From contig JAFQRY010000012.1 of assembly GCA_017409845.1 (NCBI GenBank), positions 1 through 64,000 of the forward strand: a DNA stretch of 64,000 nt, in the 5' to 3' direction. The stretch is from Clostridia bacterium. GTDB taxonomy: Bacteria; Bacillota; Clostridia; Oscillospirales; Acutalibacteraceae. The notes below the pieces were generated by a model, which was given only the letters and a program-made list of their open reading frames with translations, was not told the DNA's origin and did no database searches. Shown here piece after piece: positions 1 to 20,149 of the stretch (position 1 is the first letter of the stretch; each line of letters starts with the position of its first letter). The translations under genes were made by a program, and so were the position numbers.

Positions 1-659
1 GACAAGGAAATCATCATCACTCCCGTATACAACTACACAGTAGTTTATACATCAGACAATGCTGAAGTTTACAGCATCAAGGACAGAGCAGGCACAACCT
101 ACACTGTTCCCGCTGCAAGCAAGACAGGCTACACCTTCGCAGGCTGGACTCTTGACGGTGCAGACGCAGGTCTCACAGTCGGCGGCGAAGCAAGCATTCC
201 CGTTGGCGGTGCAACTTATGTTGCAACATGGACAGCAAACGAAGGTATTGCATATACCGTTAAGACATTCCTTATGAATAATGACGGTGTAACATATGCA
301 GAAAGCGAAGAAACTCTTTACGGCAAGGCAGGCGAACCTGCAACAGCAGCAACACCTGACAAGGAAGGCTTCACCTTCAACGCTGAAAAGAGTAACATCA
401 GCGGCACAATCGCCGGTGACGGTTCACTCGTTCTCGAAGTTTACTACGACAGAAACAAGATTACTGTTGACGTAAATGGCGAAGAAGACGAATACTACTA
501 TGATGATGAAATCACTGAGCCCACAATCCCCGTTGATCCCAACGGCGGCGAATTCGGCGGCTGGGAAGATGAAGACGGCGATCCCGTTGAATTCCCCTAC
601 AATGTACCCGACGAAGAAGACAAGGAAATCATCATCACTCCCGTATACAACTACACAGT
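1..659 (+). repeat. 41-bp direct repeat pair inside the first giant gene (1-41 and 619-659)
   Basis: The stretch beginning GACAAGGAAATCATCATC at position 1 recurs without mismatch for about 41 bp at 619, giving a 618-bp period. Both copies encode DKEIIITPVYNYTV, the end of one InlB-type unit. Such conservation of synonymous sites suggests recent duplication or gene conversion within the repeat array. Confidence 0.8.
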
Positions 660-2322
660 TGTTTACGTTGCAGAAGGCACAACAATCCACACCGTGAAGA
701 ACAGAGCAGGCTCAGACCTCGAAGTTCCTGAAGCTCCCGCTAAGGAAGGCTACAAATTCATCAAATGGATTGATGCTGACGGCGAAACTCCCGCAGATTA
801 TGCAACAGTTCCCGCCAAGAACGTAACATTCACAGCACTTTACGAAGTAAGCGCATATCAGGTTTACTACTGGGTCAACAATGAAGTTGTTTCAGTTAAG
901 TCAGCTGAATATGGCGAAACAATCGTAACAGGTATCGAGGAAGGAGAAACCAAGGTTAACCTTCTTACATACGCAACAGAAGAAGGTTATGTATTCGACG
1001 GCTGGTACACAGATGCAGAAATGACAACCAAGCTTGCAAAAGGCGCAACAGTCGGTGCAGCAAGAGTTGACCTCTATGCATCAGAAACCGCAGGCACTTA
1101 TAACGCAGTCTTCAATGTAGACGGCGAAGAATATGCAGTAGTTCCCACAGTATTCGGCGAAGAAATCGCTCTTCCCGATGAACCCACCAAGGAAGGCTTC
1201 ACCTTCACAGGTTGGAACCCCGCAGCTCAGATAATGGATGCTGAAGGCAAGACCTTTGAGGCAACATGGATTGAAACTGCAGGTGCATATACCGCAACCT
1301 TCAAGGCAGACGGTTATAAGGATGAAGTTTTCGCAATGGCATTCGGTGACGAATTCGAATCACCCGCTGATCCTTACAAGGAAGGCTACACCTTCGGCGG
1401 TTGGTCAGATGTTGAAGGCGGAACAACAGCAGTTGAGCTTCCCGAAACAATGCCCGCAGAAAACCTCACATACTACGCAATCTTCACAGTTAATAACTAC
1501 ACCGTAAACTTCAACGTAAATGTTGAAACAGAGGAATCACCCTTCATGAAGGATGAACTCAAGGTTTACGAAACTGCAGATTATGACTTCGGCGAAGAAA
1601 TCGTAATGCCCGCAGATCCCACCAACATTGAAGCTGATTTCTACACCTTCATGGGTTGGACAGATGTCAAGGGCGGCACAGAAGCCAAGTACACAGCAGA
1701 GTCAGTTATTACAATGCCCGCAGGCGACCTCGAGCTTTATGCAGTTTACGAGAGAGTATCGGTTAAGCTTGTTCCCATTGCAGGTTCAACAACCGTTATC
1801 GAAAGAAACGGCGTAAAAGAATCCTACAGCGACGATTCAGTAACAACCGATCCTTATGCAACTCCCGCAAACTTCAACCAGTATTATATCTACGGCTTTA
1901 CCAACAAGAGATCACTTCCCACAGAAGCAAATCTTGAAACCAGATATATTACTTACACCGGCGACGGACGTATCGAAATCACACGTCGTGAAGGTACAGA
2001 AGGCTTTGCAAAGCTCGGTACCGGTACACTTGTAACTCTTTACGATAACGTAACCGGCGAGGTTGTTGAACAGTTCTATCTCATCTACTTTGGTGATGTT
2101 GACGGTGACTGCTATGTAACAGGTGCCGACTATACCAATGTAAATGCTGAATTGTCAAAGGGTAGAACATGGTCTGCTCTCAGAGGCTCAAGCAGAGTTC
2201 TTTACATGATCAAGGCTGCAAACCTTGATGGTCAGAACAATATCTACGGTACTGACCTTAACCTCCTCAACAGTGCTGTTAACGGTAAAGCTCTCGACCA
2301 GACCACAGGCGTAATGGCATAA
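1..2322 (+). CDS. Giant InlB-repeat protein with C-terminal dockerin-like domain (5' truncated)
   Basis: The reading frame is open from the first base, so this is the C-terminal 773 residues of a longer protein. It contains about seven InlB/Listeria-Bacteroides-type repeats marked by GYTFxGW-like motifs, and one MucBP-like module (about residues 85-160, ending VYYDRN). From about residue 588 (VKLVPIAGSTTVI) it carries a module shared with the next two genes, with the motif LYDNVTGE. A dockerin-like domain follows from about residue 697: the first calcium loop is DVDGDCYVTGAD, the second (NLDGQNNIYGTD) is degenerate, and the tail is DQTTG. The protein is probably extracellular, by analogy with its neighbours, whose signal peptides are visible. 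No LPXTG motif is present. Function is unknown; adhesion or a role as a surface-complex component is inference. Confidence 0.85.
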   Translation, partial: DKEIIITPVYNYTVVYTSDNAEVYSIKDRAGTTYTVPAASKTGYTFAGWTLDGADAGLTVGGEASIPVGGATYVATWTANEGIAYTVKTFLMNNDGVTYAESEETLYGKAGEPATAATPDKEGFTFNAEKSNISGTIAGDGSLVLEVYYDRNKITVDVNGEEDEYYYDDEITEPTIPVDPNGGEFGGWEDEDGDPVEFPYNVPDEEDKEIIITPVYNYTVVYVAEGTTIHTVKNRAGSDLEVPEAPAKEGYKFIKWIDADGETPADYATVPAKNVTFTALYEVSAYQVYYWVNNEVVSVKSAEYGETIVTGIEEGETKVNLLTYATEEGYVFDGWYTDAEMTTKLAKGATVGAARVDLYASETAGTYNAVFNVDGEEYAVVPTVFGEEIALPDEPTKEGFTFTGWNPAAQIMDAEGKTFEATWIETAGAYTATFKADGYKDEVFAMAFGDEFESPADPYKEGYTFGGWSDVEGGTTAVELPETMPAENLTYYAIFTVNNYTVNFNVNVETEESPFMKDELKVYETADYDFGEEIVMPADPTNIEADFYTFMGWTDVKGGTEAKYTAESVITMPAGDLELYAVYERVSVKLVPIAGSTTVIERNGVKESYSDDSVTTDPYATPANFNQYYIYGFTNKRSLPTEANLETRYITYTGDGRIEITRREGTEGFAKLGTGTLVTLYDNVTGEVVEQFYLIYFGDVDGDCYVTGADYTNVNAELSKGRTWSALRGSSRVLYMIKAANLDGQNNIYGTDLNLLNSAVNGKALDQTTGVMA

Positions 2323-2336
2323 CAAAACATAATATT

Positions 2337-2360
2337 CGGGAGGGGAGTAATCCTCTCCCG
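2337..2360 (+). terminator. Stem-loop between giant genes 1 and 2 (weak terminator candidate)
   Basis: A 9-bp stem (CGGGAGGGG with CCTCTCCCG, one G-T pair) encloses the loop AGTAAT just after the stop codon of the first giant gene. There is no immediate T-run; TTTT comes about 10 nt later. It could be a weak terminator or a processing or stability element. Confidence 0.4.
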
Positions 2361-2482
2361 GATTACCGCGTTTTAATTGAAGATTGTTAAAACCGGCAGT
2401 TTATCCCTTCAATATGGAAATTTCAGATAGATTTTATCTGTTTTCATATATACCTTAATAAAATAAGGGAGGAAATTATTGA

Positions 2483-5400
2483 ATGAAAATTACCAAACGC
2501 ATAGTCTCATTGGTGCTTGCGTTGCTTCTTGTTTTTGGTAATGTTTCTCTCCTCGCCAACGCTGCACTCAGCGACAAGGTCACGGTTCGTTTCAAATACT
2601 ACCGTGAGGTTGACGGCAAGTGGGAAGAGACAAATAAAATCGCAAGAGGCGACACGGTAAAAGCGAGACTCTTTATGGATACTACTTTCAAACACAGCAC
2701 AATGCTGTTGTTCATGTCGTATCCGAACACATTCATGAAACATGAATATGAAGATCTCGAGCAGGATCCTAACGACTCAGATATCTATTATCCTGCAAAA
2801 AATGCAGAAAATGCTGATGCTGTTGGTGCTGGTTTTGAATTCAATGTTGTTACATTGTATCCCGGATATAAGGACCAGCTCACAGATGATGGTGGCGGAG
2901 AATATGAACCTTATGTTCCTCAGAGTTATTTCGATGCTCACGATTGGATGACATCATTTGCTGCTGTTTATACTCCGTTCCAGTTCAAGTCATCTTCAGG
3001 TTGGGTAGCAGAATACGTTTTCACTGTTAAAGATGATGCTACCGGTGAAGGTTACATTGAAATTCCCGAAGGCTCAATCATGGCTCCCGGCGAGCAGGAA
3101 GCTGCAGTTACTTACATCGCTAAGGAAGAAGGCGGTGCACCTGTACTTTCAATGAACGAACCCTTCACATGGGACGTTGCAGATGACAATGTTCTCACAC
3201 TTAACAACACAGTAAAATTCGATGCAGGCGAAGGCACTCTTACCGGCACAGCTTCATACGAAGGCTATATCGGTGCTCCTCTTTCTGACATCGCAGGCTT
3301 TGCAGTTCCCAAGGCATCTGCAAGCGGCAAAAACTTCCTTGGCTGGACTCCCGACGGCGGTGCAACCGTTTACACAAGCGAGCAGGTCAAGACTCTTGAA
3401 GTTGATTATGACGAAATGACTCTTACTGCTGTTTATGAAGCAGCAGACGCAACATATAAGCAGACTGTTTACACCATGGATACAGACGGCAACTATGTTG
3501 CAGGTGAAACCACCAACGAAGGTGCAGCAACAAACGATAAGGTCAAGGCTTCCGATTACGAAGTTCCCGCAGGCTTTACTCTCAACGCAGAGAAGAGCAC
3601 ACAGGGCGAAGTAACCGTTACATCAGACGGCAACGCTGCTCTTGACATTTACCTCACAAGAAACAAGTATGAAATCGCATTCGGCGATGCAAAGGAAAGC
3701 ATCTATTTCGAAAAGGCATATACTGCTCCCGAAGGACCTAAGGTTGACGGAATGAAGTTCACCGGCTGGCTCGGTGCTGACGGAAAAACACTTCAGCCCG
3801 GCGAAACCGCAAATGTTGTTGTCGGCGGCATGACCTACACAGCTCAGTATGTTTCAGCTGAAACAACAGTAGCAGTTAAGGTTAAGTATAATGACCGTGC
3901 TAACGGCGGTGCAGAAAAGATTGTTGATGCTGCAACAGTTGACACAATCGCAGGCTACACCGTAGCTCTTGCAGAGGCAGCAGGCGATGCAGAAAAGACA
4001 ACCTACTACCTCATCAAAGATCTTCCCGTAATCGAACATTACGAGTATGATGCAGAAAATACTGTAGCAACAGTAACCGCAGCAGAAGACGGTACAACCG
4101 TTCTTTACGCTGTTTATAAGCCCGTAAACTACACCGCAACCTTCGAGGGTGCACAGACATTCGCAGATGTAGCTTACTACAGCGAAATCACTGTTCCCGC
4201 AGGTCCCGTAGTTGCAGGCAAGACCTTCACAGGCTGGCTTGGTTCAGACGGCACAACTCCTGCAGTCGGCACCAAGATCAATGTTAAGGGCGATGTAACC
4301 TATACCGCTCAGTATGATGATATTGTTTACACCGCAACCTACAGCTTCACCGGCGAAACTCCCGATGATGCAAAGGTTCCCGGCGTTGCTTCAGGTATCA
4401 AGGGCGACGAAATCGTTCTTGAAGATCCCGCAGAGGTTACCGGCTGGACATTCAACGGCTGGACCGTAAACGGTGCAACAGTTACAGACGGCAAGTATTA
4501 CTTCAATACTTCAAATGTAACAATCAAGGGTACATGGACCCAGAATGTTTATACTGCAACCTACTGGCTCGATGCAGCTATGACAGAGCAGTATGATTAT
4601 CAGGAATATAACTACGGTGACATCATCGAGCTCCTTGACGCTCCCGATGCAACCTATGTTCCCGCAGGTAAGGAATTCGTTGAATGGGATTGCGGCTATG
4701 CATCAATGCCCGCTAAGAACATTGACATTATCGCAACCTTCAATCCTCTTTACTATTCAGTAACAGTCAAGCTTCCCGATGAGGATCCCTTCGTTCTCAA
4801 TGATGCAGCACTTTACGGCGACGAAATCACCGCAGAAGAGCTTGCTGATTATGAAGAAATCGAAGGCTACACCTTCAACGGCTGGAAGGTAGCAGGTAAA
4901 ACTGTAAATCTTCCCTATGCTATCACAGGCAACACCGTATTTGTTGCAGATGCAACAATCAATGCATGGGATCTTTACTTCTGGGCATCAGAAGAAGATT
5001 ATCTTGCATTTGAAGAAGGCACCCTTACCTCTGACGATGCATATAAGTTCGTAGCTGATATTACATACGGTTCAGCTATTGATACTCTTACTCCCGTTGG
5101 TCCTTCCAAGGAGGGTCACACCTTCGCAACGTGGGATATGGAACCCACAATCATGGAAGACCAGGATATGCATTTCTATGCAACATATGATATCGAATCA
5201 TACAAAGTTATCTGGGATGTTGACGGTAAGACATATGAGCATAATTATGATTATAACGAAACTCTTGCAGCTCCCGAAGTAAGCAAGGTAGGCTACGCCT
5301 TTAAGGGCTGGGCAGGTCTTGCAGAAGATGCAACAAAGATGCCCGATATCGGTAACAACGGTGCTTCAATCACCTATACTGCAGTTCTTGAGCCTAACAC

Positions 5401-8400
5401 CTATGATGCAGTATTCTATCTTGATGCTGAAAAGACTCAGGTACACGCAACTGTTCCCACCAAGTATGATGCAGATATCATCGCTCCCGAAGCTCCTGCT
5501 AAGGCCGGCTATGATTTCGCAGGCTGGGCTCCCGCAGTTGGCAAGATGGACAGCGTTGACGGCAAGGAATTCGTTGCAACATGGACTGCTAAGGGCAACA
5601 CTCCCTACACAGTAAATGTTTACACAATGGGTACCGACGGCGAATACGGTGCAGCTGATGTCAAGAATCTCACAGCAGCAACCGATTCAATGGCTACCTA
5701 CGCACCTGAAATTGCAGAAGGCTTCTCGCTCAATGCAAACAGCGTAACAGAAGGCAAAGTTACCGCAGACGGCAAGCTTGTTCTTAACATCTGGATTGAC
5801 AGACAGACATTCACTCTCACAACCGTTGTTGACGGCAAGACTGTTGAAACACCTTACCTCTACGGTGCAGCAGTTGCAGTTGAAACTCCCTCCAAGGTTG
5901 GTCACTCCTTCGCTTGGGATAAGGCAGTTCCCTCAACAATGCCCGCAGAAAACGTAACTCTTAACGGTACATTCACTGCTAACCAGTATGACCTTGTTTA
6001 CATGGTAGACGGCAAGCAGCATTCAACCGAAAAGGTTACCTACGGCACACCCGTAACAGTTATTGCTCCTCTTACCAAGGATGGCTACACCTTCTCAGGT
6101 TGGAATAAGACAGGCACATTCAATATGCCTGCTGAAACCGTAACAATCAGCGGTACATTCACTATCAACAGCTATAAGGTTATCTATAAGGTAGACGGCA
6201 ACGTTGTTCACGAAGCAACAGCTGAATACAACTCAAAGGTTGACCTTTATGACTACACACCCGAAGAAGGCTACACCTTCAGCGGTTGGGATAAGGAAGA
6301 CGGCTTCACAATGCCCGCTTCCGAAGTAACCGTTAACGGTACAACTTCAAAGATCACTGTAACAATTACCTATAAGTTCATAGGAGATGTTCCTGCCGAC
6401 TATCCCGAACCCGCACCCGTAACCGCAACATATGGCGAAAGCATCAGTAAGTATAATAATTACGAAGGCAACGATCTTGTTACCGGATATTCATCAACCT
6501 CTCATGAGTGGTCCGGTGTGGTTGATGGCGAAGACGGAAATTATTATGTAGGTTCGGAAGATATTGTCATTACCTATATTTGGAACAGAATTCCCGTAAT
6601 GATAACAACTTCCTACACAGGTGATGTTCCTGCAGGCTATGAATCAAGCGAAGATTGGTCCAAGAAGTATAATGACAGCTTCACTCTCACAGCTCCCGTA
6701 GAAGAGGGTTATACCTTCAAGGGCTGGACTGTTGAAGGTGCAGCAGAATACGACGCAGCAACAGGTACCGTAAAGGTTGGTCTTGATGACATCACAATCA
6801 CCGGTACATGGGAAATCAACAAGTATGACGTTATCTACATGGTAGACGGCGTTGAACACACAAGAGTCAAGGATGTTGCTTACGGCACTCCCGTAACAGT
6901 TCTTGATGACCTTGTTGAATCAGGCAAGACCTTCAGCGGTTGGGATAAGGAAGACTTCGTAATGCCCGATGAAGACGTTGTTATCAACGGTTCATGGACT
7001 ACCAACACCTACACTGTTAAGTATTATCTTGACAGCGAAATGAACGCAGACGAAGTTGTATTTGATTACACAGGCGTTTTCGGCTTCGAATATAATGTTC
7101 CCGTTCCCACCAAGGACGGTCACACATTCGTAGCATGGCTCAATGCAGACGGTTCAGACTCAGGTCTCACCGCAGGCACAACAACAGCTATCCCCGTAAA
7201 CGGCGGCACATACTATGCAACATGGACTGTAAACAACACCAAGCTTGTTTACAGAGCAGGCACAGATGCTAAGTTCTCAGACGGAACAACCCAGAAGACA
7301 TATGATGTTCCTTACGGTACAGCACAGTCAGAATGGCCCGTTCCCACAGAAGAACTCACAAGACCCGGCTACATCTTCAATGGCTGGAACATGACATCCG
7401 CTCCCGCAACAATGGGCACCGCTCAGGTTAACATTGCTGCAAACTGGGATGCAATTCCCTACACCGTAACATGGATCAACGGTGACGCTGAACCCGTTGT
7501 TGATGATTACATCTACGGTAAGGAAATCATCGCTCCTGAGCTTGAAGACAGAGAAGGCTGGACCTTCGAAGGCTGGCTTGAAGCTGACGGTGAAACCTAC
7601 TTCAATGATGGCGACACCATGGGCGAAAAGAGCCTTGTTTACACAGCTCAGTGGAGCGGTAACGAAGGCATCGAATATACAGTATACAGATACTTCGAAA
7701 ACCTTGCTCAGGATGGCTGGATGAACGGTGCAGAAGCTGAAGCCCTCACAGGCAAGAAGGCTGAAACCGTTCTCACAGGTACCGCAGGTACAGAAGCAGA
7801 AGTAGATGCAGCTGCAGAAGCAGTTGACGGCTTCTACATCGACGGCGAAAACAGCGTATTCAAGGCTGTAATCGCAGGCGACGGCACAACAGCTCTTGTA
7901 ATCTACTATTACAGAGATACCGTTAAGGTAACAGTTAAGGATCCCGACGGCGAAACCTTCATTGATGATGATTTCGTTTACGGCGATACAATTGAAGAGC
8001 CTGACCACGATAAGGAAGGCTATGACTTCATTAAGTGGGTAGATGAAGAAGGCAACACAGTTACCTTCCCGATGACAGTTCCCGCAACCGACATCGTAAT
8101 CAAACCCGTTTATGAAGCAAAGAAATACACAATCACATTCGTTGATGACGATAACACAGTTATCGAAGCAGCTAAGGAAGTTGAATTCGGTTCAACAATC
8201 GTTGCTCCCGCTGATCCCGAAAAGGAAGGCTTCAAGTTTGCATACTGGATTGATGCTGACACAGGTGCTGTAATGCCCGCAACAATGCCTGCTAAGAACG
8301 CAACTTATAAGGCATATTACACTGCAGGCGATGACACAACATACTTCATCGAAGTATACATGATGGATACCAACGGTGACTACACAATGGCTTCACGCAC

Positions 8401-9610: not shown

Positions 9611-9631
9611 ATGCACATCTAACCTGAAATT

Positions 9632-9655
9632 GCCTGCGGGGGCAACCCCGCAGGC
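9632..9655 (+). terminator. Perfect GC-rich hairpin after giant gene 2
   Basis: GCCTGCGGGG pairs perfectly with CCCCGCAGGC around a GCAA tetraloop. No strong T-run follows (AAAGATTTT), so termination may be partial. Two more small hairpins follow before the next start: ATGAGCAG/CTGCTCAT at 9681-9706 and CCCGC/GCGGG at 9710-9723. These 5' leader structures could affect translation of the next gene. Confidence 0.5.
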
Positions 9656-9745
9656 GGTGCAAAGATTTTAATCCGGTTTAATGAGCAGAGGGTGCAATCT
9701 GCTCATAAGCCCGCAACAGCGGGTACAAAATAAGGAGGATATCTC

Positions 9746-12700
9746 ATGAAATTAACAAAAAGGTTAGTTGCTGTTGCATTAGCGATACTGATGATTTTTG
9801 GTTCGTTTTCAGCTGCGTTGACTGCAAGTGCTGCAGATGACGGAAAAACACTGAAAATTACAACCAGATTTTTCAGAAACGTTAACGGCGTATGGACCGT
9901 AACAGACAAAGTAGCCGCAGGCGAAGATGTCAAGCTCGGTGTTTATCTTGATACCGATTATCTTGCAGGCGACGGCAGTCTTCTGCTCTACTATAACAGT
10001 AATTTCTTTGAAGAATCATTTGATTCATATGAGCAGACACTTACAGTAGGCGATTATTACGGAACAGGAACAGCATACGATATAGCAGGCAGCTTCTATA
10101 TCGGCTCTGATTCACAGGCAGGAACAATCAGCAACGGCATGAAGAATGCAGGTAAAGTTACCGAAGCATATCTTGCCGACCACGAGCCTATTTCCATTAC
10201 TTATAAGTATGGCGAATCAGCAACTGCAAAGCAGTTTGACGGGGAAAAGCTTTTCTGTGAAATTCCCTTTAAGGTAAAGGAAACTCCTGCAGCAGCAGAA
10301 GGTCTTGCAGAGGCACTTGAGTCCACTGCAGCATCAACAACCTTCCAGCGCGGCAGAATCGATATTCCCAAGTCACTTGACGGTTATACCGGCACAAACT
10401 GTGACCGTATGTATAACTGGGATGCAACACTTATTTTCGAAGAAGAACCCGTTTCACTTTACGCAAATCCCGTTTTGGTAACCTTCAATGCCAACGGCGG
10501 TAAATTTGCCGTAGCAACGGACACTTCAACAAAATATGTTGCAAACCTTTATTCGGAAGGTGAAGCAGGCGAGGCAATCGGTAAGGTTATTACAACCGAT
10601 CCTTCACTTGTTGATTCAGGCAAAGCAGTTCTCGAAGTTCTTCCCGAGCCCAAAAAAGACGGTTATACCTTCAAGGGCTGGAAGGTCAGCGGTGCAGACG
10701 ATACAACAGCATCTGAAGTAGCAGCTTATCCCTCAGCAGATACAGAATTCGTAGCTGTCTGGGAAAAGGATGATTCCGCAGGCGACAAGCTCCATTTCAG
10801 AACAGAAATTTACAGACTTGATGAAGAGACCGGCGAATGGGTATATACCGAAAAGGTTAAGCCCGGCGAAGAAGTTAAGGCAAGACTTTTCATCGACACA
10901 GATTATAACGCAGGTCAGGCTCAGGTGCTTCTTTTCTACAACAACGACTTCTTTGAAGACGATTATGCAGAAGGCTCACCCGAGGCTCTCAAAATGAACC
11001 CCAGCGAAACAGGTCCGGCAGCTCAGTACAGACTTACCGGTAATGTTACAAAACCCGCAGCATCAGACGGTAACATCGAAGAGCTCAAGATGTTCGGTTA
11101 TCTCGATGATGCATATCTCAAGGCAAATACTCCCATTATTGCAACCATCAAGTTCCCCACAGGTGCAAAGTGCCAGGTATTCAGCGGTGACGAATGGGTT
11201 GCAGAATTTGACCTCAGAGTCAAGAAGAACGCAGTCGGCACAGGTGACTTCATCGTTTATGAAGAGGCCATTGCCAACACAACAGACGGCTATTGGGCAT
11301 ATACCTCAGTTGCAAGACAGTCTGAAAACAGCGAATATGCAATGTATGCCGAAAACATGAGCCAGTGGGATGCTGATGTAACACTCGAAAGCCATCCCGT
11401 AAGCATTTACAACACAATCACCTTCGATTCAAACGGCGGTGTATTCGCAGCAGATAACACCGAAAAATATGTTATCGAAGGCACCGTAGGCGCAGCTGTT
11501 GATTACTCAACAATTCCTGAAGTAACCAAGGACGGCTGGACCTTCGTAGGTTGGGTAGATGCATCAATCGAAAATCCCGTTTATGATAACGAGAAGCCCG
11601 CAGAAGACGATGTTCTTACTGTTGACGAGCTTCCCTCAACAATGGTTTACAATTCAGATAACCAGGCTGAAACAGCACTTGTTTACAATGCATACTGGGT
11701 AAACGAAGTTGATATTACATTTGCTAAGATCAACCCCGTAACCGAAGAAACAGAAATCATTGAAACAATTACCGTAACAGCAGGTGATCCCTTCGTTGCT
11801 CCCGAAGAGCCCGTTATTGACGGTTACCGCTTCGTTAAATGGACAACAGAGTGGGATGATGAAAACAATGTTCTTGGTGCACTCACAGGTCTTCCCGAGA
11901 AGTATCCTCTTGCTGCTACAACATATTATGCAGTATTCAGCACCACTGAATATCCCGTAAACTACTATGTTCTCAATGCAGATATTGAGAATCCCACAAT
12001 TGACGACTTCAAGCATGTAGGTAATGTAAATGCTGAATACGGTTCGGTAATTCCTGCAGTTCCCAACGGCTATAACGCTCCCGAAGGCTATGTTCTTTCA
12101 GTAGCTTATACAGATGTTGTTTATGCAGACCAGATCGTATTTGCAGATGCAAACAAGTTTATCTCAGGCACAACAATGCCCGCAAACGCAGTCAACCTCT
12201 ACTTCAAGATTGAAAGAGGCGAATTTGAAGCAGTCTTCAATTCAAATGACGGTGCATGGGCAGACGGCGAAACCAGCAAGACTGTTCTCGCTGTTTACGG
12301 CGAAGAAATCGCTCTTCCCGAAGAACCCGTTCGCGAAGGTTATGTATTCGCAGGCTGGGAACCCTCAGTTTCAACCATGGACTCAGAAGGCAAGACCTTC
12401 GAAGCAGCATGGGCACTCGATGAATTCACCGTAACATACTATGTTGACGGTGCTGAATACGAAGCATATGATGTAGAATACACAGACGTTATGGAAGTTC
12501 CTGCTGACCCCTATAAGGTTGGTTATGAATTCCTCGGCTGGGCAGAAGCAGAAAACTCAACAACAGTTGTTGAAATTCCCGCAACAATGCCTGCAGATGA
12601 TGTAAACTACTATGCAGTATTTGAAGCAATCGAATACACAATTTCGTTTGCTAACACAGGCGACGAGGAATACGAAGCTATTACTCTTCCCTACGGCACA

Positions 12701-15700
12701 GAAATTCCCGAAGTAGCTGATCCCGTTAAGGAAGGCTACACCTTCACAGGCTGGGATAAGGAAATTCCCGCAACAATGCCTGCAGAAGACATGACAATCA
12801 CTGCATCATGGGAAATCAACACCTACACAGTAACATGGGTTGTTGACGGAACAGAAACTCCCGTTGATTATGAATACGGTGCACCCGTTGCCAAGGCTGA
12901 TGATCCTGTCAAGACAGGCTACATCTTCGAAGGCTGGACTCCCGCATTCACAGACGGTCTTACAATGCCTGCTGAAGATCTTACCTTCACAGCAGCATTC
13001 ACAGCAGATACCTTCGATGCAATCTTCAACACAGTAGCTGAAGGCGAAACCCACGACGGTAAGTTCGCAAGCGACGGCTCAACTTCAATCGCTGTTCCCA
13101 CAGTATTCAATGAAGAAATCGTTGCTCCCGCAGAAGTTCCCGTAAGAACAGGTTACACCTTCGCAGGCTGGGATCCCATCGTTGGCGTTATGGATGAAGA
13201 GGGCAAGACATACACAGCAGTATGGACTCCCAACGCAAACACAGAGTATAAAGTTGAATTCTATTCAATGAATACAGAAGGCGGCTATGAGCTCACCGAT
13301 ACTCAGACTCTCACAGGCGAATCCGATTCAGTTATCAAGCTTGTTGTAAGTGCTCCCAAGAACTACACAATCAACAAGGATGAAAGCACATATGATGACG
13401 ATGTAACAATCGCTCCCGACGGTTCAACAGTTGTTACCGTTTACTTTGACAGAGATCTCTTCACAGTAACATTTGATGGCAACAACGGCACAGCAAACGG
13501 CGAAGCAACCGTTTCAAACGAATACCGTTACGGTGCACTTGTGGCAGTTCCCGAGTTCGAAAGAGAAGGCTACACCTTCAACGGCTGGCTTGACGAAAAC
13601 GGTGATCCCGTTGACGTTAACCTCACAGCAATCGAAACCGTAACTTACACAGCAGACTGGAAGATCAATCAGTACACAATCACCTTCGATACCGTTGGCG
13701 GTACTGAAATCGCTCCCATCACTCAGGATTATGCAACAGCAGTTACTGCTCCTGCAAATCCCACAAAGCTCGGCCACGAGTTTGTTGCATGGGATACAGA
13801 AGTTCCTGCAACAATGCCCGCTGAAGATATGACAATCACTGCAGAGTGGAATATCCTTGCATTTGATGCAATCTTCAACGCAGGCGAAGGCAAGTTCGCT
13901 GACGATTCAACAACTGCAACAGTTGAAGATGTAACATTCGGCGAAGCTGTCACAGCACCCGCAGAAGAACCCACCAGAGAAGGCTACACCTTCGACGGCT
14001 GGCTTGATGCAGACGGCAACCCCGTCGGCACAATGGATGCTGAAGGCAAAGAATACTTTGCACAGTGGGATATCAACGAATACACAATCACCTTCGAAAA
14101 CACAGGTGACACAGTAATCGCTCCCATCACTCAGGATTACGCAACAGACGTAACCGCTCCCGCAGATCCCGTTAAGGAAGGCCACACCTTCGCAGGCTGG
14201 GATACAGAAGTTCCCGCAACAATGCCCGCCGGTGACCTTACCATCACCGCAAAGTGGAATGTTAATCCTTATGATGCAACATTCGATGCAGGTGAGGGCA
14301 CATTCTCAACAGGCGATTCAACCGTAACCAATCCCGTTGATTACGGCACCGACATCATCACTCCCGACGAAGCACCTGAAAAGACAGGTTACTCCTTCGC
14401 AGGCTGGGAAGATGAAGACGGCAACGTTTATACCGAAGGCGTGCCCGCAGGCAAGATGGATGCAGACGGCGAAACCTTCACTGCAGTATGGGCACCCAAC
14501 GAAGATACAGAATACAAGGTAGTTGTTAACTACACTGACGCTGCAGCAGGTGCTAAGGCTGATGAGTATCTGTATGTCGGCACAACCGATAACGCAATCG
14601 CTATCGTTGATGCTATCCCCGATCCCGAAGCTGAAAACACCGAATATGTTCTTATGAGCGATCTTGCAGTCAAGGGCTATGTTCTTGATACAGAGGCTGA
14701 AAATGAATTTACCGGCGTTGTTGCAGCAGACGGCTCAACAGTTCTCAATCTCTACTACATTGCAACAAAGGTTACCGCAACCTTCGATGCAAACGGCGGT
14801 AAGTACTATGATGCAACAACCGTCAAGACAGTAGAAATCGACTATAATTCACTCGTTGCTCCCGTTGCACCCGCAGGCTATGATGCTCCCGCTCAGGAAG
14901 GCTATACCTTCGGCGGCTGGCAGGGTCTCAATGATGCAACAAGACTCCAGGCTGACAGAACCTTCCAGGCAATCTGGAATGCAAATCAGTACACCATCAC
15001 ATGGGATACCAACGGTTCCGATGTTGACGGCGGAGAATTCGTACAGACCGATGATTACAAGGCTCTTGTCAACAAGCAGACTTACGCAGTAAGAGAAGGC
15101 TACACCTTCGTTGGCTGGGTAGACGAAAACGGCGCAGCTGTTGAAGTTCCCGACACTATCCCCGCTAAGAATCTTACTCTCATCGCTGATTATGATGTTA
15201 TCAGCTATGATATCATCTGGAATGACGGCACAAAGACAACAACCGAAACCAAGGACTACGGCTCAGCTATTGTTGAACCCGCTTACGAACCCGCTAAGGA
15301 AGGCTACACCTTCACAGGCTGGGCAACCGCAGACGGCAAGACTCCCGCTGAAGTTGCAACAGTTCCCGTTGACGGCGTTGAATTTGAAGCACAGTGGACA
15401 AAGAACAATTACACAGTTAACTACTATGTAATTAATCCCGAAACAGGTGAGTTCGGTGCAGCAGTTGCAACAGCAACAGTTGCTTTTGAAGATCCCATCT
15501 CAACTGTATTCACAGGATATACAGCTCCTGAAGGCTACACACTTGTAGCTATCGCTTACACAGACACAGGCCTCACAGCTCCTCTTGAAGCTGATGCAAA
15601 GATGCCTGCAAACAATGTAAATCTTTATTATGATCTTGCTGCAAACGAATATGAAGCAAAATTCTATCTCGATGCAGAAAAGACAAACCTTTACGATACT

Positions 15701-18700
15701 GTAAAGGCAGATTACAATGCAGTAATCAATGCTCCTGCTGATCCCACCAAGGAAGGCTATGTATTCAAGGGCTGGACTCCCGCTGTTGAAACAATGGATG
15801 AGTTAGGCAAGACCTTCGTTGCAACATGGGAAGCAGATACATTCACCGTAACCTATAAGGCAAACGGCGGTGTATGGGGCGAAGGCGAAGCAATCGAAAC
15901 ATCAAAGGCATTTGATGTAACATTCGGTGCAGCTGTTCCCACAGTTGAGCAGCCTACAAGAACCGGCTACAACTTCAAGGGTTGGGATAAGACCGCTCCC
16001 GCAACAATGCCTGCTGAAGACCTCGTCTTCACAGCACAGTGGGAAATCAAGACTGCTAAGGTAGTCTTCATGGACGGCACAACAACCGTTAAGACTGTAA
16101 GCGGTAACTACGGCGACGCAGTTGAAGCTCCCGCAGATCCCACCAAGACAGGTTACACCTTCACAGGTTGGGATAAGACAGTTCCCGCAACCATCCCCGA
16201 AGCTGATGTAACAATCAATGCTACATGGGCAGTCAACAAGTATGATGTTATCTGGGATGTTGACGGCGTAAAGACAATCGTTAAGGATGTTCCTTACGGC
16301 GAAGCAATCAAGAAGGAAGCTGCTCCCGAAAAGACCGGCTATACCTTCACAGGCTGGAACGGCTACACAGACGGCATGACAATGCCTGCTGAGGACGTAA
16401 CCTTCACAGCTGTATTCGAAGCAAAGACCTACACCGTAACATTCGATGCTAACGGTGGTGCATGGGATAACGGTGATACAACAAAGACTGTTACAGGTGC
16501 ATACGGCTCAGCTCTTCAGGCTCCCGTAGCTCCCGCAAGAACAGGCTACACCTTCCAGACATGGTCACCCTCAGTTCCCACAACAATGCCTGCTGAAAAT
16601 GCAACCTATAAGGCAATCTGGACAACTGCAGGTAAGGTTGACTACACAGTAGAAACCTACTACATGAACACTGAAGGCACATATGACGGTGTTGAGGCTG
16701 TCGTAACCGGCGGTACCGCAACAATCGATGCATATGTAAAGATTCCCGTAGACACAGCTCCCACAGGCTTCACTTATGATGCTGACGAAGCTAACTACAT
16801 TGAAGGCGTTGTTGCCGGCGACGGTTCAACAATCTTCAAGGTATACTACGAGAGAAACACTTATAAGATGACCTTCACCGGTAACGGCGGTACAATCAAC
16901 GGTAACCCCGATAAGGTTGATACCTACTATTACGGTGCACAGGTTGTTGCTCCCACAGCAGTAAGAACAGGCTACGACTTCGCAGGCTGGGATAATGCAG
17001 TTCCCGCAACAATGCCCGCAGAAGATGTAACTCTTAATGCACAGTGGACCGAAGCTGTTTACACAGCAACATTCAAGGCATATCCCGGTGCATTTGCAGA
17101 CGGCGAAACAACTGTAACCGTTGAATATGCATTCGGTGCAGAAATCGCAAAGGCAGCAGATCCCGTTCGTGAAGGCTATGACTTCGCAGGCTGGGAAGGC
17201 TACACAGACGGTATGACAATGGGTTCAGAGGATGTAACCTTCACCGCAACATGGACTGAAGTTTACTACGATGCAGTATTCTATACCGACGAAGCTCTTG
17301 ATGCTGCAACAGCAACAACAATCAATGCACAGTACACCAAGGAATACAACATTCCCATTGATCCCGCTAAGGAAGGCTACACCTTCACAGGCTGGAACAA
17401 GGTAGTTGACGGCGAAGCAACAAATCTTCCCGGTAACCTCGGCGTTGCAGGTTCGGCAAAGGCAATGCCTCTCGGCGGCGAAGAATACTACGCAACATGG
17501 GAAGTAAATGAGTATAACCTCGTTTACCGTGCAAACAACGGCACATACAACGGCGAAGCTAACCTCACCTATAAGGTTGCTTACGGCACAGCTAAGGCTG
17601 ACATGCCCGTTCCTGCAGAGCCCACAAGAGAAGGCTACACCTTCACAGGCTATAATGCAGAGCTTCCCGCAACAATGCCCGCACAGCAGGTTAACCTCCT
17701 TGCTCAGTGGGAAATCAACACCTATGATGCAATCTTTGATGCAGGTGAAGGTGTATTTGAATCCACAGGCGAAACAACAGACAAGGCAGAAGTTACATTT
17801 GAAGATTCAATCTTTGCTCCCGATGAAGCTCCCGTTAAGGAAGGCTACGATTTCGGCGGTTGGGAAGATGCAGACGGCAACGTTTACTATCCCGGCGATG
17901 AAATCGGTCCCATGGGTGCAGACGATGTAACCTTTGAAGCTGTCTGGACAGCTAAGGAAGACACTGCATACACAGTTAACCACTACTACATGGATGCTGA
18001 AGGCACCTATGACAACGCAGAGGTTGTTACCGAAAACCTCGCAGCAGAAACAGATTCAACTGTAACTGCAGCTCAGAAAGATAAGGATAACTTCACATTT
18101 GATGCAGCAGCATCAACAGTTGAAGGTGTTGTTACAGCAGACGGTAATCTCGTTCTTGAGCTCTACTATGTAAGAGAAAAGAACACAGTAACCGTTTATG
18201 ATGAAGAAGGCAATGTTCTTTCAACAGAAGACATTTACTTCGAAGCTCCTCTCAACATCGCAGAACCCACCAAGGAAGGCTATACCTTCGACGGTTGGAA
18301 GGATGCTGAAGGCGATGATGTAACAGTTCCCGCAACAATGCCCGGCGATAAGCTTGACATTTACGAGAGCTGGACACTCAACAGCTATGATGTAACATTC
18401 GATGCTAACACAGGCGCATGGGCAGACGGCGACACAATCAAGACCGTTGCAACAAGCTACGGTGCAGCAATTGTTGCTCCCGCTGACAAACCCGTTAAGG
18501 CAGGTCACACCTTCCTCGGCTGGTTCGATGCAAAGGAAAACGGTAACCCCGTTGCTTCCTACACATCAATGCCTGAGCTTGCAGACGGTGAAACTCTCAC
18601 CTTCTATGCAAGATGGGATGCAAACAAGAATGATTACAAGATCGAGATTTATGAAATGAATCCCGACGGAACAATGCCTACAGAACCCACTTCAATGGTT

Positions 18701-20149
18701 ATCAACAACGCTCTCGTAGGCGAATTCGTTGAAGCTAATGTAAAGGTTCCCGCAGGCTTCACTCTTGATGAAGCAAACAGCGTTCTCGACGGCACTGTTC
18801 CCGCAGAAGGCGAGCTTGTTCTTAAGGTTGTTCTCGTAAGAGCACCTCACAAGTTTACCGCAATCGTTGACGGCAATGTACTCGTTGACGCTAAGGAATA
18901 CTACTTCGACCAGACAGTTGAGCAGATAGCTACTCCCGTTAAGGATGGCTACACCTTCGCAGGTTGGTCAACAACCGAAAACAGCACAACCGTTGATACA
19001 GTTTATCCCGCAAGAATGCCTAACAATGATGTTACCATCTACGGCGTATGGACAGTTAACGGCTACGATGCAATCTTCAACGCAGGCGAAGGTGCATTTG
19101 CAGACGGTTCAAAGACAGAAACCGTTAAGGCTGACTTCGGTCAGAATATCACAGCTCCCACAGAAGAACCTTCAAGAGAAGGCTTCGAGTTCGGCGGCTG
19201 GAAGGATTCACAGGGCAATGTTTATCAGCCCGGTGAGGTTGCAGGCGTAATGGGCAAGGACGGTGCAACATTTGATGCTGTTTGGAACAAGTCCAACTTC
19301 ACAGTAACCTTCTACGGTTATGAAGCACTTGCAGAATCACCCTACAAGTCAGTTAATCCTTCAGTAGTTCTCGGTTCCGCAAACTATGATTTCGGCGAAG
19401 CAATCGCATTCCCCGCAGAGGAAAGCTTCCCCGCAAATGCACAGATTGACGGCGATTACTACACCTTCGTTGGTTGGGCAAAGACTGTAAACGGCACTGT
19501 ACTTTCAAATACAGAGCTTTACACTCAGACAATGCCTGCTGAGGATACCGCATACTACGCAGTTTATGACCGTGTCAAGGTTATGCTTATCCCCAACGAT
19601 GATGCTCAGTATTGGGCAGACAGCAACTCCAACTGCACAACAGTTATCGACAGAGCCGGCGGCACAGTTGATGATTACGATGCAAAGACCAGCACTTGGT
19701 ATGTATACGGTCTCACCGATAAGATGCTTATTGAAACAAGCTTCGCAATGAAGCGTCTTGACACTTATGTTGACGTAAGCGGTGACGGTTACTACGAAGT
19801 TGTTGATTACAAGGCCAAGGAAGGCTCAGTAGGTACCGGTACAGTAATCAACGTTTATGATAACGTAACAGGCGAGCTTGTTGAAAGCTTCTGGATTATC
19901 ATTTACGGCGACCTCAACGGTGACGGTGCTATCACCAACCTTGACTACACAATCGCTCTTGCAGAAGATGCAGGCGAAACAACCTGGAGCCGTAAGATTG
20001 ATACCGAAAACTACGTTCACTATAAGGCAAAGGCTGCCAACGTAAACGGCGACTCAATCTTCAGCGTTACCGACGCTGCTCAGATTAACTACTACGTACT
20101 TGGTACCGTAAGAATTAATCAGGCAACAGGTATAGCTTACAACAAATAA
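9746..20149 (+). CDS. Giant secreted InlB-repeat protein with dockerin-like C-terminus (3467 aa)
   Basis: AAGGAGG lies 7 nt before the ATG. The signal peptide covers about residues 1-29 (MKLTKRLVAVALAILMIF, cut at ASA-AD). The N-terminal module seen once in the preceding protein occurs here twice (about residues 33-235 and 350-560), sharing the pattern VWTVTDKVAAGEDVK / EWVYTEKVKPGEEVK and paired aromatics in YYNSNFFE / FYNNDFFE. About 31 InlB-type units follow, with about five MucBP-like modules (for example YTVNHYYMDAEGTYDN). The shared module starts near residue 3277, then a dockerin-like domain at about 3388-3455 (DLNGDGAITNLD; second loop NVNGDSIFSVTD) and the tail RINQATG. It is secreted; function is unknown. 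The terminator right behind it closes the three-gene block. Confidence 0.9.
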   Translation: MKLTKRLVAVALAILMIFGSFSAALTASAADDGKTLKITTRFFRNVNGVWTVTDKVAAGEDVKLGVYLDTDYLAGDGSLLLYYNSNFFEESFDSYEQTLTVGDYYGTGTAYDIAGSFYIGSDSQAGTISNGMKNAGKVTEAYLADHEPISITYKYGESATAKQFDGEKLFCEIPFKVKETPAAAEGLAEALESTAASTTFQRGRIDIPKSLDGYTGTNCDRMYNWDATLIFEEEPVSLYANPVLVTFNANGGKFAVATDTSTKYVANLYSEGEAGEAIGKVITTDPSLVDSGKAVLEVLPEPKKDGYTFKGWKVSGADDTTASEVAAYPSADTEFVAVWEKDDSAGDKLHFRTEIYRLDEETGEWVYTEKVKPGEEVKARLFIDTDYNAGQAQVLLFYNNDFFEDDYAEGSPEALKMNPSETGPAAQYRLTGNVTKPAASDGNIEELKMFGYLDDAYLKANTPIIATIKFPTGAKCQVFSGDEWVAEFDLRVKKNAVGTGDFIVYEEAIANTTDGYWAYTSVARQSENSEYAMYAENMSQWDADVTLESHPVSIYNTITFDSNGGVFAADNTEKYVIEGTVGAAVDYSTIPEVTKDGWTFVGWVDASIENPVYDNEKPAEDDVLTVDELPSTMVYNSDNQAETALVYNAYWVNEVDITFAKINPVTEETEIIETITVTAGDPFVAPEEPVIDGYRFVKWTTEWDDENNVLGALTGLPEKYPLAATTYYAVFSTTEYPVNYYVLNADIENPTIDDFKHVGNVNAEYGSVIPAVPNGYNAPEGYVLSVAYTDVVYADQIVFADANKFISGTTMPANAVNLYFKIERGEFEAVFNSNDGAWADGETSKTVLAVYGEEIALPEEPVREGYVFAGWEPSVSTMDSEGKTFEAAWALDEFTVTYYVDGAEYEAYDVEYTDVMEVPADPYKVGYEFLGWAEAENSTTVVEIPATMPADDVNYYAVFEAIEYTISFANTGDEEYEAITLPYGTEIPEVADPVKEGYTFTGWDKEIPATMPAEDMTITASWEINTYTVTWVVDGTETPVDYEYGAPVAKADDPVKTGYIFEGWTPAFTDGLTMPAEDLTFTAAFTADTFDAIFNTVAEGETHDGKFASDGSTSIAVPTVFNEEIVAPAEVPVRTGYTFAGWDPIVGVMDEEGKTYTAVWTPNANTEYKVEFYSMNTEGGYELTDTQTLTGESDSVIKLVVSAPKNYTINKDESTYDDDVTIAPDGSTVVTVYFDRDLFTVTFDGNNGTANGEATVSNEYRYGALVAVPEFEREGYTFNGWLDENGDPVDVNLTAIETVTYTADWKINQYTITFDTVGGTEIAPITQDYATAVTAPANPTKLGHEFVAWDTEVPATMPAEDMTITAEWNILAFDAIFNAGEGKFADDSTTATVEDVTFGEAVTAPAEEPTREGYTFDGWLDADGNPVGTMDAEGKEYFAQWDINEYTITFENTGDTVIAPITQDYATDVTAPADPVKEGHTFAGWDTEVPATMPAGDLTITAKWNVNPYDATFDAGEGTFSTGDSTVTNPVDYGTDIITPDEAPEKTGYSFAGWEDEDGNVYTEGVPAGKMDADGETFTAVWAPNEDTEYKVVVNYTDAAAGAKADEYLYVGTTDNAIAIVDAIPDPEAENTEYVLMSDLAVKGYVLDTEAENEFTGVVAADGSTVLNLYYIATKVTATFDANGGKYYDATTVKTVEIDYNSLVAPVAPAGYDAPAQEGYTFGGWQGLNDATRLQADRTFQAIWNANQYTITWDTNGSDVDGGEFVQTDDYKALVNKQTYAVREGYTFVGWVDENGAAVEVPDTIPAKNLTLIADYDVISYDIIWNDGTKTTTETKDYGSAIVEPAYEPAKEGYTFTGWATADGKTPAEVATVPVDGVEFEAQWTKNNYTVNYYVINPETGEFGAAVATATVAFEDPISTVFTGYTAPEGYTLVAIAYTDTGLTAPLEADAKMPANNVNLYYDLAANEYEAKFYLDAEKTNLYDTVKADYNAVINAPADPTKEGYVFKGWTPAVETMDELGKTFVATWEADTFTVTYKANGGVWGEGEAIETSKAFDVTFGAAVPTVEQPTRTGYNFKGWDKTAPATMPAEDLVFTAQWEIKTAKVVFMDGTTTVKTVSGNYGDAVEAPADPTKTGYTFTGWDKTVPATIPEADVTINATWAVNKYDVIWDVDGVKTIVKDVPYGEAIKKEAAPEKTGYTFTGWNGYTDGMTMPAEDVTFTAVFEAKTYTVTFDANGGAWDNGDTTKTVTGAYGSALQAPVAPARTGYTFQTWSPSVPTTMPAENATYKAIWTTAGKVDYTVETYYMNTEGTYDGVEAVVTGGTATIDAYVKIPVDTAPTGFTYDADEANYIEGVVAGDGSTIFKVYYERNTYKMTFTGNGGTINGNPDKVDTYYYGAQVVAPTAVRTGYDFAGWDNAVPATMPAEDVTLNAQWTEAVYTATFKAYPGAFADGETTVTVEYAFGAEIAKAADPVREGYDFAGWEGYTDGMTMGSEDVTFTATWTEVYYDAVFYTDEALDAATATTINAQYTKEYNIPIDPAKEGYTFTGWNKVVDGEATNLPGNLGVAGSAKAMPLGGEEYYATWEVNEYNLVYRANNGTYNGEANLTYKVAYGTAKADMPVPAEPTREGYTFTGYNAELPATMPAQQVNLLAQWEINTYDAIFDAGEGVFESTGETTDKAEVTFEDSIFAPDEAPVKEGYDFGGWEDADGNVYYPGDEIGPMGADDVTFEAVWTAKEDTAYTVNHYYMDAEGTYDNAEVVTENLAAETDSTVTAAQKDKDNFTFDAAASTVEGVVTADGNLVLELYYVREKNTVTVYDEEGNVLSTEDIYFEAPLNIAEPTKEGYTFDGWKDAEGDDVTVPATMPGDKLDIYESWTLNSYDVTFDANTGAWADGDTIKTVATSYGAAIVAPADKPVKAGHTFLGWFDAKENGNPVASYTSMPELADGETLTFYARWDANKNDYKIEIYEMNPDGTMPTEPTSMVINNALVGEFVEANVKVPAGFTLDEANSVLDGTVPAEGELVLKVVLVRAPHKFTAIVDGNVLVDAKEYYFDQTVEQIATPVKDGYTFAGWSTTENSTTVDTVYPARMPNNDVTIYGVWTVNGYDAIFNAGEGAFADGSKTETVKADFGQNITAPTEEPSREGFEFGGWKDSQGNVYQPGEVAGVMGKDGATFDAVWNKSNFTVTFYGYEALAESPYKSVNPSVVLGSANYDFGEAIAFPAEESFPANAQIDGDYYTFVGWAKTVNGTVLSNTELYTQTMPAEDTAYYAVYDRVKVMLIPNDDAQYWADSNSNCTTVIDRAGGTVDDYDAKTSTWYVYGLTDKMLIETSFAMKRLDTYVDVSGDGYYEVVDYKAKEGSVGTGTVINVYDNVTGELVESFWIIIYGDLNGDGAITNLDYTIALAEDAGETTWSRKIDTENYVHYKAKAANVNGDSIFSVTDAAQINYYVLGTVRINQATGIAYNK
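10470..19565 (+). repeat. InlB-type repeat array of giant gene 3 (about 31 units)
   Basis: GYTFxGW-type motifs recur about every 65-110 codons with near-identical DNA around them. The second N-terminal module interrupts the array early (about 10790-11410). Several consecutive units differ mainly in the loop between the strand motif and the VPATMPAED motif. Confidence 0.85.

Follow-up and report, generated by a model that had tools for sequence, protein, structure and literature searches.

In CipA, cohesins and a C-terminal dockerin are carried by one secreted protein (PMC5817068), and in the Limousia mucinolysome, as far as the available text describes it, carbohydrate-active enzymes (CAZymes) and peptidases dock on cohesin scaffoldins, one of which is sortase-anchored (PMC12997984). 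The accessible part of the report on Ruminococcus flavefaciens FD-1 describes dockerin-bearing leucine-rich repeat (LRR) and transglutaminase-like proteins, the genes of group 4b lying in a tandem row, and for some of the group 4 interactions its authors propose a possible role in structuring the cell surface (PMC2930009). Here we compare with these systems a stretch of 64,000 nucleotides ("the window") which forms the start of contig C6 (JAFQRY010000012.1) in the draft genome of a Clostridia bacterium of the family Acutalibacteraceae (GCA_017409845.1; 2.53 Mb, 95.8% complete). Three adjacent giant genes at its left-hand end encode InlB-repeat proteins, each with a conserved stretch, "X", and then a dockerin at its C-terminal end (together, the X-dockerin), and two of them beginning with cohesin-like domains. 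Our best reading, held with modest confidence and drawn from the sequences, is that these giants belong to a cohesin-dockerin assembly on the cell surface that is non-cellulosomal, anchored by sortase and spaced by InlB repeats.

Dockerins, repeats, a recurring order of parts and a member with a sortase signal are all present, and the assembly has no match to the cohesin model PF00963; we infer that the N-terminal domains pair with the dockerins and that the product may coat the surface and serve in adhesion or in contact between cells. Gene 1 is represented by its 3′ part (positions 1..2322, forward strand; P0001, at least 773 residues), the open reading frame being open at the window edge, with seven InlB repeats (about 34-1758) and an X-dockerin. 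Gene 2 (2483..9610, forward strand; P0002, 2375 residues) begins with a signal peptide, recognised by eye, followed by one cohesin-like domain, 19 InlB repeats (about 3668-9127) and an X-dockerin. Gene 3 (9746..20149, forward strand; P0003, 3467 residues) also has a signal peptide by eye, two cohesin-like domains, 31 InlB repeats (about 10562-19573), one of which sits between those two domains, and an X-dockerin. These counts come from a local repeat profile seeded from P0003; the InlB/Listeria-Bacteroides repeat family PF09479 matches P0001, P0002 and P0003 at E 8.4e-52, 4.6e-82 and 2.3e-197, respectively. Membership of the internalins was ruled out: no LRR or GW family matched up to E 1 in a Pfam scan of the three proteins (P0001 without its N-terminus), no LRR region was found, and internalin models fell far below their cut-offs.

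Judged by profile comparisons, which settle the matter where single-protein scores are weak, the C-termini of all three giants are dockerins. Each has a pair of 12-residue loops: DVDGDCYVTGAD/NLDGQNNIYGTD in P0001 (X-dockerin 1741..2319; loops 2095-2130 and 2221-2256), DLNGDSKITIDD/DFNGDKFITNGE in P0002 (9110..9604; loops 9374-9409 and 9500-9535) and DLNGDGAITNLD/NVNGDSIFSVTD in P0003 (19559..20143; loops 19910-19945 and 20039-20074), all on the forward strand. When the last 160 residues were shuffled 5000 times, two separated loops turned up in 0 (P0001), 1 (P0002) and 1 (P0003) of the shuffled sequences, under a loose loop pattern written after these loops had been seen. A profile of the three C-termini matched solved dockerins at E 4.3e-7 and one of 52 C-terminal sequences at E 9e-12; these values, together with the shuffles, rule out calcium loops that arose by chance. 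The dockerin model PF00404 was matched by 50 of the 52 sequences at E up to 0.1 (best 6.4e-11). On single proteins it was weak, with nothing up to E 1 for P0001, E 0.21 for P0002 and E 0.0033, below cut-off, for P0003, which did rise above the dockerin cut-off in the genome-wide search (23.6 against 22.9 bits). The first loops are intact, and it is in their second loops that P0001 and P0003 deviate from consensus, both with N at position 1 and P0001 also with Q at position 5. The X stretch before every dockerin has a consensus with STTVID, YGL, GTGT and YDN.TGE; its position appears to match that of X modules in known scaffoldins, an X-dockerin order being that of CipA-type scaffoldins. The only NCBIfam model that matched the X-dockerin set was one for a cellobiosidase, found in 26 of the 52 members; the dockerin part of that model presumably accounts for this. 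Calcium-dependent binding of cohesins by these X-dockerins is what such modules lead us to expect. The original prediction had described three adjacent giant InlB-repeat genes with two calcium loops and a dockerin at every C-terminus, and had pointed to PF00404 as the check. The genes are borne out by frame sizes and PF09479 scores, and the dockerins by the two profiles and the 50 matching sequences; the loop pairs are present, two second loops being off consensus, and PF00404 supports the call through profiles and P0003's genome-search score rather than through single proteins. The prediction was right about the dockerin end of the giants and missed their cohesin-like N-termini.

Those N-terminal domains, one in P0002 (2558..3193) and two in P0003 (9830..10444 and 10769..11392), all on the forward strand, are about 200 residues each and mutually related. 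They are three of nine cohesin-like domains in the genome, another of which lies on contig C7 in a protein of BspA-type LRR/InlB/Big_3 make-up. Inspection by eye reveals the cohesin pattern in these domains, its two halves (GE.V.....-YD..F and W..EF.L.VK..A) being separated by a long insert. In profile comparisons with 30 cohesins of the family, six close sequences reached 86.8% (score 40.1, 100 columns) and eleven sequences 75.0% (score 35.8, 39 columns); the controls for the eleven-sequence profile scored 7.6-15.3 (20 column-shuffles) and 12.2 (the cohesin alignment reversed once). A more distant set of ten, with three from contig C18, reached 96.6% over 46 columns against cohesins and 98.8% over 144 columns against the eleven; a broad alignment of 26 sequences reached 95.9%, over 40 columns only. 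Searched in Pfam at E up to 1, four of 34 members matched cohesin (best 0.0016), with each other family found in one member; in the broad set PF00963 was matched by 12 of 26 (best 5.9e-6), with no other family in more than two. The 30 family cohesins themselves match scaffoldin chains in the PDB (1g1k at E 4.7e-21; the best chain listed at 2e-22), and the best match of their profile in the window's genome (E 0.0014) falls inside the cohesin-like domain of a protein on contig C32; a weaker one, on C18 (E 0.25), falls inside another cohesin-like domain. From these comparisons the N-terminal domains are likely homologous to cohesins at the superfamily level, and they probably bind these dockerins as cohesins do. 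The giants would fit a scaffoldin architecture, a non-catalytic secreted protein with cohesins and a dockerin or anchor, provided that their N-terminal domain counts as a cohesin.

The same parts recur in relatives. We fetched loci by C-terminal alignment to the X-dockerin, taking the best 80 of 211 relatives (79 loci); within these best 80 the closest modules, at up to 71% identity, come from metagenome-assembled genomes of uncultured Clostridia and Ruminococcaceae, most of the best relatives being, by record title, from the gut of goat, sheep, yak, water buffalo or deer. Two cohesin-like domains, 13-31 InlB repeats and an X-dockerin, in that arrangement, make up a gene in L106, L107, L109, L111-L115, L118, L122, L124 and L125 (L112 and L113 being near copies). 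In L109, L111, L115, L122, L124 and L125 this gene is preceded by an upstream gene that also ends in an X-dockerin; these upstream genes are cut by the locus edge, and in the part retained no N-terminal domain was detected. Among 25 cohesin-like proteins with a complete 3′ end (drawn from five stretches of our own and 25 of the 79 fetched loci, four proteins with an open 3′ end being left out), 20 end in an X-dockerin, three in a sortase-type signal, two in neither and none in both. That signal (an LPXTG-like motif, a hydrophobic stretch and a basic tail) is found in the C32 protein, which has 2652 residues, InlB repeats, a cohesin-like N-terminus and a C-terminus of IPDTG, hydrophobic stretch and RKKKED; in L118 and G145, both with IPDTG; and in L128, a contig of G015, with VPHTG. 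An anchored cohesin-like protein is thus found in both other same-genus genomes examined, G145 and G015. P0001-P0003 have X-dockerin ends and lack the signal. L118 holds, in one 20-kb stretch, a dockerin protein, a protein with two cohesin-like domains and a dockerin, and an anchored cohesin-like protein.

Two further architectures were seen among the relatives. At L121 (8588-10342) a 585-residue protein has three tandem X-dockerin modules and may be a cross-linker; and at L057 (715-3465, minus strand; genome G102) a subtilisin-like protease, recognised by eye, combines a cohesin-like domain with an InlB-like repeat and has an end resembling the X-dockerin. G102 gave 18 matches to the X-dockerin and none to PF00963.

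Across 200 genomes of the family, at E 0.001, the X-dockerin was found in 87, PF00963 in 134 and the close form of the cohesin-like domain in nine. PF00963 is present in 73 of the 87 X-dockerin genomes and in 61 of the 113 others (p 8.6e-6, kinship ignored). The 14 X-dockerin genomes without PF00963 include the window's own (G000) and G015, both with a cohesin-like domain; in seven of the other 12 the broad profile (cut-off E 0.01; some matches weak, at 6e-4 and 4e-5) finds a cohesin-like domain, as against none of the 14 genomes, of 52, that have neither X-dockerin nor PF00963. With the seed suppliers G102 and G048 removed the comparison is five of 10 against none of 14 (p 0.006), and no remaining match shares more than 48% identity with any seed.

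A number of observations weigh against this reading. On the profile evidence the cohesin homology is remote: PF00963 has no match in the window's genome at E 0.001; the 34-sequence alignment A5 reached just 48.6% against cohesins (97 columns); several of the strongest profile matches span only the first 39-46 columns; profiles A1 and A5 found no PDB chain up to E 10, and the six that A8 found, five being scaffoldin-B cohesins, had E values of 0.47 and above; the first copy of the domain in the window, taken alone, has no Pfam match; and a match of the 30-cohesin profile on C29 (E 0.083) lies outside any cohesin-like domain. The close form is rare (nine of 200 genomes), and five of the 12 X-dockerin genomes just mentioned have no broad-profile match either. 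The figure of 20 in 25 proteins overstates co-occurrence, because the loci were fetched by their X-dockerin. The anchored C32 member is not beside the window, and a giant of 2242 residues on C18, with cohesin-like domains and InlB repeats, has neither dockerin nor sortase signal. The deeper joining nodes of our domain trees have low support, small clades being good. The original prediction had also proposed searches for cohesins and sortases in the genome and had suggested a cohesin-held surface layer or matrix. PF00963 drew a blank where the prediction had counted the lack of any cohesin gene against itself, a null that looks like a false negative because nine diverged cohesin-like domains are present; three sortase-family matches were found; and a cohesin-held surface structure is still the best reading of the sequences, a layer or matrix as such being conjectural.

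These points raise the question of whether the dockerins are real and the N-terminal domain is some other beta-sandwich adhesion domain, the partner being an ordinary cohesin missed in the assembly or carried by another species. The assembly is 95.8% complete, which leaves some room for a missed gene; the first window copy without a Pfam match would fit; and G145, of the same genus, has a single ordinary cohesin, carried by a secreted-looking protein of 247 residues (L226, 897-1637, minus strand) with two dockerin-like loops by eye. Set against this, PF00963 matches nothing in either G000 or G015 at E 0.001, it is the Pfam family to recur in relatives of the cohesin-like domain, and the true-cohesin profile lands inside that domain. 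We consider this explanation unlikely.

Still less likely, in our view, is that the X-dockerin has lost docking and serves as a C-terminal cap stabilised by calcium or as a wall-attachment module, the giants being independent adhesins. The off-consensus second loops of P0001 and P0003 and the sub-threshold single-protein dockerin scores of all three would be expected of such a module; the intact first loops, and the tracking of cohesin presence by X-dockerin presence across the family, would not. The trees also bear on this. Copy 1 and copy 2 of the cohesin-like domain form mostly separate groups that are kept across species, the first and second domains of gene 3 grouping with copy 1 and copy 2 of the relatives, respectively; the upstream-gene dockerins of L109, L111, L115, L122, L124 and L125 group apart from the dockerins of the two-domain genes. 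The cohesin-like domains of C32, of the anchored L118 protein and of P0002 were placed unstably. Dockerin types kept by gene position across species are as expected if binding specificity is kept, and the grouping, reminiscent of the typed cohesin-dockerin pairs found in cellulosomes, points to more than one pairing.

By the best profile, the whole genome has six dockerin modules. Five of the six dockerin proteins were scanned in Pfam (P0001 in its 3′ part) and showed no enzyme domain, other matches being stray and far below threshold; the sixth, a C18 protein of 2762 residues, was outside that scan and has cohesin-like, InlB and X-dockerin parts by local profiles. To the right of gene 3, and convergent with it, lies a NAGLU (alpha-N-acetylglucosaminidase) gene (20538..22643, minus strand), presumably of family GH89, which bounds the cluster and which we place outside the system; its protein has NAGLU domains only in the Pfam scan, and housekeeping genes lie beyond it (ribosome recycling factor, DXP reductoisomerase, DNA polymerase III alpha). 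That the giants are adaptor scaffoldins of an ordinary cellulosome- or mucinolysome-like enzyme complex is improbable: the family is rich in cohesins (134 of 200 genomes) and X-dockerins (87 of 200), a sortase-anchored mucinolysome scaffoldin is described for Limousia in the text available (PMC12997984), and NAGLU adjoins the cluster, but with so few dockerin modules, and NAGLU itself lacking one, the defining test of a cellulosome failed because no docked enzyme was found, and a classical cellulosome was rejected on that ground (five of six dockerin proteins scanned, one partially, in an assembly 95.8% complete).

The cluster probably extends beyond the window. Contig C18 ends in exactly the 141 bases with which the window begins, and because of this exact end overlap (which indicates adjacency; the contigs were kept separate) the gene of P0001 very probably continues on C18. 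On the same strand C18 has a further row of giants: one of 1740 residues with FIVAR and an X-dockerin; one of 2242 (L019, 9131-15856) with two cohesin-like domains and InlB repeats; the 2762-residue protein; and an open frame of 2849 residues with a cohesin-like domain at its N-terminus. From this row and the overlap, the whole cluster is probably six giant genes long. Contigs of relatives also break inside the same gene type (L117 at a contig start, L119 at a contig end); giant repeat genes break assemblies, and such clusters are therefore probably under-counted.

Other C-terminal ends were seen. The C-terminus of the 2242-residue giant seems, by eye, to repeat an unrecognised domain, and the first gene of L119 ends in a similar-looking stretch. 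Cohesin-like proteins of L022 (8517-12035, minus strand; contig C7), L058, L065 and L068 have short aromatic or hydrophobic tails, such as WWQWIIRILLLGFLWY, with no dockerin or LPXTG motif; a different membrane attachment is possible for these. Two of the sortase-family proteins were also noted. One (L002, G000:C17, 1360-3255, minus strand; 631 residues) has, in front of the sortase, a zinc-ribbon, a protein-kinase-like domain and a transmembrane segment; these N-terminal parts and its class-B look were judged by eye, and a kinase-sortase fusion would be unusual. The other (L003, G000:C5, 1366-3453, minus strand; 695 residues) has a largely acidic N-terminal part of about 394 residues before its transmembrane segment.

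For the non-cellulosomal, anchored surface assembly that we favour, we propose the following working. The giants would be secreted via their signal peptides (recognised by eye) and would offer one or two diverged cohesins at the N-terminus, separated from the other end by a spacer of up to 31 InlB repeats; the C-terminal X-dockerin would plug into cohesin-like domains of other members. The base would be a protein of the C32 type, fixed to the wall by sortase and exposing a cohesin-like socket, and the N-terminal sockets of giants plugged into it could take further dockerin proteins, the outcome being chains, branches or a single layer. It is possible, and we put it forward tentatively, that the giants polymerise, each N-terminal cohesin-like domain taking the next X-dockerin, into calcium-dependent, reversible, non-covalent chains rooted on the anchored member; such chains would be pilus- or matrix-like and non-enzymatic, in ruminant-gut Clostridia.

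Most work on cohesin-dockerin pairs has concerned enzyme scaffolds; in this genome the connector appears to be used by giant repeat proteins, through a socket apparently so diverged that the standard cohesin model misses it. Should this hold, cellulosomes may be called too readily from dockerin proteins in gut metagenomes, cohesins go unseen in some "orphan" dockerin genomes, and spacing within an assembled coat becomes a role of InlB repeats. The suggestion that dockerins structure the surface, made in the part of PMC2930009 available, would also become testable with six dockerins and nine small domains. In the open-licence literature we found no paper on a dockerin arranged with InlB, Listeria-Bacteroides repeat, Flg_new or B-repeats, and none joining dockerin, adhesin and leucine-rich repeat.

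Like the Listeria internalins, the giants bear Listeria-Bacteroides/InlB B-repeats on secreted Gram-positive surface proteins; unlike them, P0001-P0003 have no LRR or GW match, and X-dockerin ends take the place of LPXTG signals. With cellulosomal and adaptor scaffoldins they share cohesin-type domains and a C-terminal dockerin in one secreted protein, and an anchored partner, whereas the cohesin-like domains here are strongly diverged and about 200 residues long, 7-31 InlB repeats serve as the putative spacer, and the dockerin proteins scanned are without an enzyme domain. The closest described systems, as far as the consulted portions of the reports extend, are the Limousia mucinolysome and the R. 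flavefaciens LRR and transglutaminase-like dockerin proteins. The former differs in its docked enzymes, no docked enzyme having been found here, and Flg_new is absent from the main text of PMC12997984; the R. flavefaciens proteins differ in being part of a large cellulosome, in having LRR rather than InlB repeats and, in the text available, in the lack of any mention of a cohesin-like N-terminus. What our locus shares with Limousia, in the published text to hand, is an origin in animal-gut bacteria and a cohesin-dockerin complex with a sortase-anchored scaffoldin, in our case a predicted one; what it shares with R. flavefaciens FD-1, on the same footing, is non-enzymatic repeat proteins that bear dockerins and are encoded, in FD-1 for group 4b, in a tandem row.

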